The notes under the pieces are model-generated. The model did not search any database. It was not told the origin of the DNA and saw only the letters and a program-made list of their open reading frames with translations. Below are positions 3,256 to 5,478 of a DNA stretch of 5,765 nucleotides, piece after piece. The stretch comes from an uncultured Lachnospiraceae bacterium. Lineage in GTDB: Bacteria; Bacillota_A; Clostridia; Lachnospirales; Lachnospiraceae. The stretch is from contig USDU01000164.1 in the NCBI GenBank assembly GCA_900553635.1, forward strand, positions 1 through 5,765. Direction: 5' to 3'. Every line of letters starts with the position of its first letter. The stretch's first letter is position 1. The translations under genes and the position numbers were made by a program.

Positions 3256-4071
3256 TCACTTTTTCAGCGCGTCATTCATACTTCCCATCCGGTATCCTGC
3301 CAGATCCATGGTCACGTACAGGAATCCGTACTCCTTCAGCTTCGCCACCACATCGGCGCGGGCCTTCTCTTCCATCAGCTTGTCGAACTGCTCCGGCAGC
3401 ACCTCGATGCGGGCCAGATTGTCGTGAATACGGACGCGCACCTGACGGAAACCGTAATCCAGAAGCAGCTGCTCGGCCTTCTCTACCATGGCAAGCTTTT
3501 CTTTGGTAATGCTTTCGCCGTACACAAAACGGGACGCCAGACAGGCGAAGGACGGCTTATCCCAGGTGGGTAAATCCATATCTTTGGAAAGCTCGCGAAT
3601 CTCTGCCTTCGTAAGCTCCGCTTTTCGCAGCGGGCTCTTGATATCCAGCTCGGCGATGGCCTGGAGTCCCGGGCGGTAGTCGCCATTGTCGTCCATATTA
3701 GAACCCTCTGCCACGTATGCAATACCGTTGTCTGCCGCCAGCTGCTTCATTTTCTCAAACAGCTCATGCTTGCACAGATAGCAGCGATTGGGCGGATTCT
3801 TGGAAAATCCGTCTATCTCAAGCTCCTCGGATTCGCAGATAATGTGGCGGATACCCTCTTTTTCACAAAATGTCTTGGCCTCTGTCAGCTCTCTTTTCGG
3901 AAAGGAGCAGGATTGCGCCGTCACGGCAATGGCCTTGTCGCCCAGCACCTCATGGGCTGCCTTCAATAAGAAGGTGGAATCTACGCCGCCGGAAAAGGCC
4001 ACGACCACACTTCCCAGCTCCCGCAGATAAGCCTTCAAATTTTCCAGTTTCTGTTCTGCAGTATTCTGCAT
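3256..4071 (-). CDS. larE: LarE-type ATP-dependent sulfur transferase (three-cysteine form)
   Basis: A PP-loop ATP pyrophosphatase of the LarE family, 271 residues from the preferred start. LarE adenylates pyridinium-3,5-biscarboxylate mononucleotide and inserts sulfur, making the nickel-pincer cofactor of lactate racemase and relatives. Visible are the ATP loop SGGVDS (27-32), DYRPGL (131-136), FACLASRF (175-182) and YRMGSMND near the end. Cys177 matches the sacrificial Cys176 of Lactobacillus plantarum LarE. Cys97 and Cys100 (NRCYLCK) add two more, the pattern of LarE proteins that hold a [4Fe-4S] cluster. The chosen ATG (4071) has a GGGGGT ribosome site and puts the ATP loop within one residue of the L. 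plantarum position. In-frame ATGs at 4095 (behind GGAGGT) and 4104 (too close to it) are alternatives. No larA, larB or larC is in view, so the pathway is inferred from family alone. Confidence 0.88.
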   Translation of the reverse strand: MQNTAEQKLENLKAYLRELGSVVVAFSGGVDSTFLLKAAHEVLGDKAIAVTAQSCSFPKRELTEAKTFCEKEGIRHIICESEELEIDGFSKNPPNRCYLCKHELFEKMKQLAADNGIAYVAEGSNMDDNGDYRPGLQAIAELDIKSPLRKAELTKAEIRELSKDMDLPTWDKPSFACLASRFVYGESITKEKLAMVEKAEQLLLDYGFRQVRVRIHDNLARIEVLPEQFDKLMEEKARADVVAKLKEYGFLYVTMDLAGYRMGSMNDALKK

Positions 4072-4142
4072 GCTTTTACCCCCTGCATTTATCATCAATT
4101 TCATACCTCCACAGCCGTTTTCCGGACTGCAGTATTTTTATA

Positions 4143-4227: not shown

Positions 4228-4256
4228 TTGACTTTCCGCCATTTTCAGGATATAAT
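4228..4256 (+). promoter_or_regulatory. Strong sigma-A promoter of the cold-shock gene
   Basis: TTGACT (4228-4233), a 17-bp spacer and a perfect TATAAT (4251-4256) make a near-consensus promoter, with AT-rich sequence upstream. Transcription should start near 4262-4263, giving a leader of about 150 nt before the csp ATG. Long leaders are typical of cold-shock genes. Confidence 0.9.
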
Positions 4257-4291
4257 ATCTACGTTCAAATGTATTTTCGAAGAGGATTGAT

Positions 4292-4355
4292 TCACATGTT
4301 TTTGTAAGTCATCGTTCACTTTGATGCTTTACAAAAACATGTGATTTTTTGTTTT
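4292..4355 (+). terminator. Intrinsic terminator inside the csp leader (candidate attenuator)
   Basis: TCACATGTTTTTGTAA (4292-4307) and TTACAAAAACATGTGA (4329-4344) are perfect 16-nt complements. Inside, CATC (4310-4313) pairs with GATG (4323-4326) around a 9-nt loop. The stem runs directly into TTTTTTGTTTT (4345-4355). This is a full intrinsic terminator in the plus direction only, because the minus direction lacks a T-run. It lies about 30 nt after the predicted start site and 57 nt before the csp ATG, with no upstream gene to terminate, since larE is divergent. It should act as an attenuator or end a leader-derived small RNA of about 93 nt. Confidence 0.75.
4296..4307 (+). other. Three-codon ORF (Met-Phe-Leu-stop) in the attenuator's 5' arm
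   Basis: ATG TTT TTG TAA lies wholly within the 5' arm of the leader terminator, and its stop codon coincides with the end of the arm. GAGG (4282-4285) stands 10 nt upstream as a possible ribosome site. A ribosome here would cover the arm and block the terminator. Such a short ORF can arise by chance, so translation is unproven. Confidence 0.3.
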
Positions 4356-4411
4356 CGGACAGCATGGGAACATACATTATATTTTCTATATTTATTAGGA
4401 GGCTTCATTTT

Positions 4412-4618
4412 ATGAACAAGGGTACTGTTAAGTGGTTCAACGGAACAAAGGGATACGGCTTCATCACCAACTCTGAGACAGGCGAGGATGTATTCGTACA
4501 TTTCACCGGCATCGTTGCTGATGGCTTCAAGACTCTGGAGGAAGGCCAGTCCGTTACTTTCGATGTAACCGAGGGTAATCGTGGACCGCAGGCTACCAAC
4601 GTTGTCGTTGTAGCTTAA
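4412..4618 (+). CDS. Cold-shock protein (CspA family)
   Basis: A 68-residue single cold-shock domain, the full family length, which binds single-stranded RNA and DNA and opens RNA structure at low temperature or during growth. Both RNA-binding motifs are intact: KGYGFI (13-18, RNP1) and VFVHF (27-31, RNP2). The start [17 protein letters not shown] is typical. The ATG at 4412 is chosen over an in-frame ATG at 4349 because AGGAGG (4397-4402) sits 9 nt before it and the extra 21 residues would match nothing in the family. The gene is single, between its own promoter and a terminator. Control probably lies in its 150-nt leader, which holds a terminator-like hairpin. Which csp paralogue it is cannot be told. 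Confidence 0.96.
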
Positions 4619-4662: not shown

Positions 4663-4691
4663 GGGCATTCCATCAGGGATGCCCATTTTTT
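4663..4691. terminator. Bidirectional intrinsic terminator between csp and the sigma-like gene
   Basis: GGGCATTCC and GGGATGCCC pair over 9 positions (one T-G) with an ATCA tetraloop. ATTTTTT follows on the plus strand, and GTTTTT follows on the minus strand. It lies between the convergent genes ending at 4618 and 4711 and can serve both. Confidence 0.85.
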
Positions 4692-4710: not shown

Positions 4711-5478
4711 TTATTTCTGCTCTTCTGTGCTTTCACCGTCGCCGGTTCCCTCTCCTGCCAGCTTCAACAGATCCTCGATCTCTTCCACAGGCATGTCCAT
4801 AAACGCGGACAGTTCTTCCACAGAGACCTGACGCTCCAGCTCGCCGGACAGCTCTTTGATACCGTCGCTGAGCTCATTTAAACGATCCGCAATCAGCTCG
4901 CCTGCGGATTTCTCCGTCTGCTGATCCTCCAGCGCTTCGCTGACTGCTTTTTCGATCTCTTCTTTCAGATAATCCAGAGCGGATACGCCCTCTTCCCGGA
5001 GTCCGAGAGTCTCCAGTGCCAGCATCAGACCGATATTGCCTTCCTGAATCAGGTCGCCGATGGGAAGTCCCCGGCCCGCGTAATGCTTTGCAGTCTCCAC
5101 TACCCTCGGAAGCAGCTGTTCAGTGAGACGCGCCTTTGCGTCATTGTCTCCGCTCCCCTCCACTTCCCGGCAGAACTCCAGTAATGCCTCTTCTTCCACT
5201 GTCTTCAAATAACTCAAATCCTCCTCGTACTGAGCCAAAAAGATCTGTTCCTCCTCAGAAAGCTCCGGCGTGCCCTCCTTTTGGTCCGCCGCAGGCACAT
5301 AGCCCTCCACGGTAATCATTTTGGACGCCAAATAAGCAAATACCAGGTCATACTGCTCCTCGGTCAGATCCATATCCTTCAAAAACGTCTTTACTGCGTC
5401 GGTACTGAGACGGTTGTTATTGATTTTTGCCAGCTCGCCCAGATCCTCCAGACGCTTCTGAAATGCTTCTTTTTCCAT
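4711..5478 (-). CDS. Degenerate sigma-70-like protein without functional promoter-recognition regions
   Basis: A 255-residue, very acidic protein related to primary sigma factors. Residues 14-57 resemble region 1.1. Residues 74-158 match regions 1.2 to 2.2, including YAGRGLPIGDLIQEGNIGLM (133-152), the surface that binds the RNA polymerase clamp helices. Residues 164-186 align with regions 2.3-2.4 with no deletion, but the E. coli sigma-70 residues Trp433/Trp434 become Glu173/Glu174, Phe427 becomes Ala167, Arg436 becomes Glu176 and Gln437 becomes Lys177. Residues 193-241 resemble region 3. Region 4 is absent and the tail is acidic (242-255). It probably binds core polymerase but cannot melt or read promoters; this is inferred. 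The ATG directly follows the TAA of the DUF3783 gene, with AAGGAG 9 nt upstream inside that gene. The alignment was made from memory. Confidence 0.8.
   Translation of the reverse strand: MEKEAFQKRLEDLGELAKINNNRLSTDAVKTFLKDMDLTEEQYDLVFAYLASKMITVEGYVPAADQKEGTPELSEEEQIFLAQYEEDLSYLKTVEEEALLEFCREVEGSGDNDAKARLTEQLLPRVVETAKHYAGRGLPIGDLIQEGNIGLMLALETLGLREEGVSALDYLKEEIEKAVSEALEDQQTEKSAGELIADRLNELSDGIKELSGELERQVSVEELSAFMDMPVEEIEDLLKLAGEGTGDGESTEEQK

Follow-up and report, generated by a model that had tools for sequence, protein, structure and literature searches.

In S. aureus, the cspA mRNA starts with a 113-nt leader containing a long hairpin that is cut by RNase III at -88 and -53, a processing step that activates CspA and leaves a transcript with higher stability and better translation (PMC3386247). 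The same authors raise the possibility of a similar hairpin in Listeria cspB (PMC3386247); a review describes csp regulation in Listeria as an area in which not much is known (PMC8155936). The leader of Listeria cspA is a thermosensor that refolds with temperature and acts on translation (PMC8079631). In B. subtilis, one of the suppressor point mutations in the cspC leader, G-65A, took a lacZ fusion from 4360 to 9450 units (PMC8307031), Term-seq recorded weak 3′ ends in the cspB 5′UTR that are stronger in pnpA mutants (PMC9040804), and a screen based on structural entropy placed the cspB upstream region among its candidates (PMC4448311). The available excerpts of the open-licence literature hold no description of a terminator family in Firmicutes csp leaders.

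Here we analyse a csp locus in a stretch of 5,765 nucleotides from an uncultured Lachnospiraceae bacterium (contig USDU01000164.1), hereafter the window. The features of the locus are as follows:

3256-4104, minus strand: larE, the divergent upstream neighbour of csp
4228-4256, plus strand: csp promoter of the sigma-A type, TTGACT-17-TATAAT, 11/12 (promoter scan)
about 4263, plus strand: predicted transcription start of csp, placed from the promoter position
4263-4290, plus strand: 5′ strand of a predicted basal helix (leader fold and own-versus-swapped pairing energies)
4292-4344, plus strand: putative terminator hairpin of 22 pairs (sequence, fold, models R1 and R2, covariation)
4345-4355, plus strand: U-run TTTTTTGTTTT, directly 3′ of the stem (sequence; kept in 37/39 stem-only matches)
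4346-4371, plus strand: 3′ strand of the predicted basal helix, overlapping the U-run and the bases beyond (fold and pairing test)
4397-4402, plus strand: Shine-Dalgarno sequence AGGAGG of csp (sequence)
4412-4618, plus strand: csp, encoding a cold-shock protein of 68 aa (Pfam PF00313, CSD, 100.9 bits, E 3.4e-29)
4663-4691, plus strand: ordinary 3′ terminator of csp (terminator scan)

The csp leader would thus be about 149 nt long. Its outer stem (4292-4307 with 4329-4344) is formed by 16 perfect pairs, and inward of these are one G-U pair, one mismatch and five more pairs. A preliminary description of this DNA had placed a 16-bp perfect, AU-rich stem and a U-run between a near-consensus promoter and the csp ribosome site, downstream of a divergent neighbour. 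The coordinates, the 11/12 promoter, the orientation of larE and the composition of the outer stem (four G-C among 16 pairs) all agree with that account; the stem as a whole is larger than described, with its 22 pairs interrupted, and a covariation of the leader 5′ end with sequence past the U-run had been missed (see below). Since larE is divergent from csp, no larE transcript needs a terminator in the csp leader. Elsewhere in the window, a convergent gene (4711-5478, minus strand), adjoining that of a DUF3783 protein, encodes an RpoD-like protein of 255 aa in which sigma regions 2 and 3 were matched and region 4 was not listed; we read it from its sequence as a truncated or specialised sigma-like protein. 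The gene for NusG, a termination factor, is in the segment 157-1087 (minus strand), about 3.5 kb from the csp leader hairpin, along with genes that by sequence look secE- and rpmG-like.

In folding predictions the hairpin at 4292-4344 reaches -26 kcal/mol (z -7.0, with 0/200 shuffles as good) and the entire leader, 4262-4411, has a z of -7.6. A generic terminator scan of the window did not list the csp-leader hairpin, presumably because it takes loops of 3-8 only; it returned 11 terminator-like sites against 6.6 expected and so is by itself no evidence. A stable stem directly followed by a U-run, which marks an intrinsic terminator, is present in the window as in nearly all stem-only matches. 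The preliminary description had further supposed that temperature might act through melting of the stem, an idea we abandoned: between 5 and 65 °C the stem is predicted never to open, and its predicted stability rises as the temperature drops, so that melting cannot account for cold induction.

To examine related leaders, contigs of GTDB genomes were searched once with the Csp protein; of 584 confirmed matches the best 80 were taken as loci, and 45 of the 80 leaders, picked as probable Clostridia, were folded. In many of these 45, a long AU-rich hairpin occupies the same position and ends in a T-run, and a scan for a hairpin plus T-run over the 80 loci and the window added two loci from Bacilli (L037 and L069). 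In a first alignment of 24 leaders, 19 of the 22 pairs vary on both sides (shuffles give 10.2). Pairing is seen in 94.8% of cells, where sliding the partner leaves no more than 48.4%; this percentage is partly by construction because the seeds were picked for folding, and the later searches add evidence to it. Among 47 diverse stems from Clostridia and Bacilli, 20/22 pairs vary on both sides, both-side changes occupy 228 cells (70.5 when shuffled) and 93.8% of cells are paired (at most 51.7% when slid), the pairing percentages being inflated because the models that brought in later members had been fitted to this structure. The only invariant pairs in these 47 stems are two, the C-G pairs 2 and 4, at the stem base beside the U-run. 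Loops are variable across leaders, and the sequence of the outer stem is kept beyond the needs of pairing. G-U pairs, present in 118/127 folded cores, suggest that selection acts on the RNA. The preliminary description had pointed to an alignment of csp leaders from relatives as a check, and the relatives do keep a stem with compensatory changes, the U-run and a near-constant distance from promoter to stem.

A promoter-like site of at least 9/12 is found upstream of the stem in 105 of 127 distinct leaders, against 22.2 expected, and the distance from the -10 element to the stem has a median of 31 nt (10th to 90th percentile, 28-38). The linker between stem and ribosome site, in contrast, holds 12 promoter-like sites in the same 127 leaders against 9.5 expected. 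The window has one such linker site (4356-4383, 9/12), below the hairpin, which we considered as an alternative promoter and rejected, as it is unconserved across the 127 leaders; it is probably due to chance. In position the hairpin and its U-run fit a leader attenuator, being placed after the csp promoter and before the start codon, and with a promoter upstream at near-constant distance and none conserved downstream, csp is most simply expressed by read-through. The compensatory changes, the kept U-run and the near-constant promoter distance all favour the view, already taken in the preliminary description, of a leader terminator on the csp transcript itself. Termination as such we infer from the terminator signature; that the hairpin is an intrinsic terminator attenuating csp's own transcript seems to us likely on the sequence evidence.

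The promoter-hairpin-csp arrangement occurs before csp in Lachnospiraceae, Lysinibacillus, Jeotgalibacillus and Paenibacillus. Covariance model R1 was built from 25 leaders, the window included, and gives the window 79.5 bits; a stem-only model, R2, gives it 61.2 bits, and both models include the window. R1 has matches in 23 of the 29 genomes behind the loci (E ≤0.05; the genome of L037 was left out), in 47/200 genomes of the family of G008 (E ≤0.001, with strict filters), in 128/398 Bacilli genomes (the class of G026, Lysinibacillus; E ≤0.0001) and in 20/391 Clostridia genomes (the class of G008; E ≤0.0001), the filters of the two class searches being stricter, with loss of weak matches. A Csp homologue is present in 375 of the same 398 Bacilli genomes.

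The matches are closely tied to csp. In the first rounds csp adjoins the match at 60 of 66 loci, some of which repeat earlier ones, and the six without csp (L111, L113, L115-L118) matched at 41.2 bits or less. Among 70 further matches, drawn from the matches listed, in 69 the csp gene follows the stem on the same strand at a distance of 33-103 nt, and L215 (43.4 bits) is the one exception; the 70 comprise 50 loci of the two class searches and 20 regions from the Bacilli match list, most weaker Bacilli matches being left out. Outside the 70 are L217, identical to L105 and already counted, and L221-L226, opposite-strand matches to known sites; L185 repeats L108. In several genomes two or more csp paralogues are preceded by the element: four genomes picked for matching have it at 4/5 csp genes (G079), 3/5 (G017), 2/4 (G026) and 4/4 (G207), counts that omit CSD hits below 41 bits (three in G079, two in G207). 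At three loci (L263, L267 and L268) several near-identical csp genes stand in tandem, each having a repeated leader of its own, and just downstream of the csp locus L192, at 1981-2092, there is a SAM riboswitch. One scan of viral contigs for phage carriage, with one strict pattern, gave no match. These comparisons establish the anatomy of the element, its conservation and its linkage to csp; as far as the sequences sampled go, it is a conserved feature that is nearly csp-specific across two classes.

R2 was made to keep the U-run out of the search. It was run over 99 sources (the window, the 80 Csp-search loci and a further 18 from the four genomes picked for matching) and found 39 csp-leader stems, one site being counted twice (L029 and L154) and the stem at 3203-3260 of L015, at a contig end, being omitted. 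At least 6 of the next 8 bases are T in 37/39 of these stems and at least 5 in 39/39, against 251/4295 background windows with at least 6 T of 8; since R2 was built from U-run-bearing stems, many of them among the 39, some selection remains in this comparison. On the other side, none of the 39 has 6 or more A in the 8 bases before the stem. A score of our own, for a hairpin plus T-run near the start codon, was applied to the csp leaders and to other upstream regions of the same loci (the Csp-search loci and the window): 36 or more is reached by 19/80 csp leaders and 0/229 other regions, 24 or more by 23/80 and 15/229. For the whole sample the figures are 31/134 against 0/285 controls and 36/134 against 20/285, the 134 csp leaders including 18 from the four genomes picked for matching and 36 CspC-like leaders. 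The element is patchy, which counts against the attenuator reading: it was matched in 47/200 genomes of the family of G008, and 98/134 sampled csp leaders are without a terminator-like hairpin at a score of 24. Two csp leaders, those of L155 and L074, carry in the corresponding position a terminator-like hairpin whose sequence differs, one of the two being GC-rich and in Anoxybacillus. Their scores are 30 (L155), reached by 4/285 controls, and 25 (L074), inside the control range, and as terminators they are suggestive only.

The leader 5′ end appears to have a pairing partner beyond the U-run. Its pairing with the 30 bases past the U-run is better in energy within a leader than between leaders (own -8.19, swapped -6.14 kcal/mol; 127 leaders), and 0/10000 permutations were as good, in a test in which the kinship of the sequences is kept in. 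For a control stretch further down there is no own-pair advantage (p 0.31), and the 5′ end against the U-run alone gives no pairing signal in 62 leaders (p 0.78). In these first 62 leaders the own partner beats the row median in 43, and at least 6 basal pairs are present in 60/62 minimum-energy folds, a count without a control. Because own pairs are better than swapped ones, the read-through mRNA would begin as one long hairpin, which points to a role of the basal helix after read-through.

We then asked whether another helix in the leader could act as an antiterminator. The same swap test, which recovers the hairpin (5′ arm with 3′ arm, own -22.46, swapped -11.89), gave nothing for the 5′ end with the 5′ arm (-4.61 own, -4.89 swapped kcal/mol, p 0.97). 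Two other pairings gave borderline values and are weak in energy: the 3′ arm against the 5′ end (p 0.058) and the linker against the 5′ arm (p 0.061). A base-pairing cis antiterminator was rejected, there being no co-varying alternative helix by this control, and control of read-through is therefore probably exerted in trans. In the mechanism that we propose, RNA polymerase would start at about 4263, make some 90 nt and stop at the U-run (4345-4355); how often it stops would depend on the folding speed of the 22-pair hairpin. Csp would be expressed from read-through transcripts only, in which the first leader bases would pair with those beyond the U-run; the resulting long 5′ hairpin may protect the mRNA or be processed. 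Read-through would most likely be set in trans, by the free Csp pool bound to the nascent leader or by a termination factor, NusA or NusG for example.

Csp itself is a plausible candidate for the regulator, though we hold it to be less likely than not. Overproduced CspD of E. coli increases terminator read-through (PMC9765468), whereas in B. subtilis lacking both CspB and CspD several terminators are read through more often and that at pyr less often (PMC8307031), so that these reports disagree on the sign of a Csp effect. Csps are moreover abundant in B. subtilis (PMC8307031), for which reason the terminator would need a substantial leak, a point against an attenuator. It is conceivable, if somewhat doubtful, that the csp leader terminators form a widespread Firmicutes RNA family through which the free Csp pool sets csp read-through. 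If true, the leader would be a transcription-level sensor of Csp-binding RNA in the cell, made of one hairpin and no antiterminator helix.

A stem of 22 pairs is more than termination needs, and is about the size of an RNase III substrate. The hairpin could serve mainly for RNase III cleavage and as a 5′-end stabiliser, the cut shortening the csp mRNA and improving both its stability and its translation, as described for S. aureus cspA (PMC3386247), with the U-run as a by-product or a landing site for Csp. The long stem, and a basal helix that starts near the transcript 5′ end, would suit such a role. An RNase III site, however, requires no U-run at the stem base, whereas 37/39 stems keep one, on the 3′ side only, and the invariant C-G pairs are at the stem base beside it; CspC-type leaders, in turn, have a long stem without a U-run (as judged by eye) and 0/30 match R2, so that the U-run looks separable from a long leader stem. 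On balance we regard this explanation as unlikely. We are similarly doubtful about constitutive damping, in which the terminator would cut the output of a strong promoter by a fixed factor and read-through would be unregulated. The lack of a co-varying antiterminator and a stem whose predicted fold persists over the whole range of 5-65 °C are what such a device would show; yet a weaker promoter could give a fixed reduction equally well, and a 22-pair stem compensated across two classes, almost only before csp, would rather suggest regulation.

The two remaining explanations seem to us more remote. The terminated leader of about 90 nt might itself function in trans as a stable small RNA, perhaps by soaking up Csp like a sponge, and the product would indeed be a compact hairpin with a U-tail, from an outer stem conserved more than pairing requires. 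Its confinement almost entirely to csp leaders (69/70, the exceptions being L215 and the six weaker matches) makes action in cis simpler, and we hold a role in trans to be quite improbable. Hardly credible, finally, is a palindrome working at the DNA level, as a regulator operator or a mobile repeat: a long inverted repeat does adjoin the promoter, but the G-U pairs in 118/127 cores, the variable loops and the one-sided U-run are against it, as are the position after the promoter and the presence of copies almost only before csp genes. The element is most simply an attenuator, and Gram-positive bacteria that have it probably set their Csp level by letting only some transcripts past the terminator.

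The means by which Gram-positive bacteria adjust the amount of cold-shock proteins, which are RNA chaperones, are understood only in part. A csp-leader terminator common to two classes offers a concrete test bed and raises the question of whether a protein with effects on intrinsic termination governs its own production through such a terminator, and in which direction. The RNA element now has a working model and could enter annotation.

As to described csp leaders, the element resembles that of S. aureus cspA in the presence of a long hairpin at the 5′ end of a csp mRNA; compared by description, it differs in that the S. aureus hairpin is presented as an RNase III substrate, with no terminator reported in the text available (PMC3386247). 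The cold-shock-box leaders of B. subtilis cspB and cspC are also csp leaders, with two conserved stretches (PMC8307031). In CspC-like leaders of Bacilli (L247-L262), inspection by eye gave AATTATTTTTGTTC and GGGCAAGGATAGTAAT, two widely separated stretches that pair with each other and are taken to be the published cold-shock boxes; their sequences are unlike those of the present element and no U-run follows. None of 30 CspC-type loci matches R2 at E ≤1, which led us to reject homology with the element, and none of 36 CspC-like leaders reaches a score of 24. The CspC-type leaders, with conserved sequence of their own, apparently make up a distinct family of csp leaders.

No family was found for the hairpin in Rfam 15. 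The cspA thermoregulator, RF01766, is likewise a structure in the leader of a csp mRNA that controls expression, and it matches 12/12 element-bearing loci searched at E ≤0.1. The window scores 31.8 bits, against a gathering cut-off of 78, and three loci exceed 78 bits (L170, 94.8; L174, 86.1; L171, 79.3; leader plus coding region). Without the coding part, however, the L170 and L171 leaders give no RF01766 match at E ≤1, so that the score comes through the coding region, which RF01766 includes, unlike the hairpin element; on the strength of these two coding-free leaders, RF01766 was rejected as the family of the hairpin. Leader-only searches of Rfam listed microRNA precursors among other families, at scores well short of the cut-offs, as is usual for long hairpins.

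The Listeria cspA thermosensor is again a csp leader structure that controls expression, and differs by acting on translation (PMC8079631). In our predictions the unpaired probability of the Shine-Dalgarno sequence averages 0.57 at 37 °C over 121 leaders (those with a recognisable ribosome site among the 127), and is below 0.3 in 10/121; at 15 °C the mean falls to 0.48, opposite in direction to a site that is freed by cold. The window is among the lower ones (0.24 at 37 °C, 0.05 at 15 °C); within 4382-4402 its ribosome site is predicted to be paired with a U-rich stretch just upstream, unlike in most leaders. Sequestration of the ribosome site does not look, in these models, to be general among the leaders.

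Intrinsic-terminator attenuators are leader terminators controlled by a protein, a riboswitch or a tRNA. The csp element differs from them in that no conserved antiterminator helix was found, and has in common with them the placement of the putative terminator, between the promoter and the ribosome site of the controlled gene.
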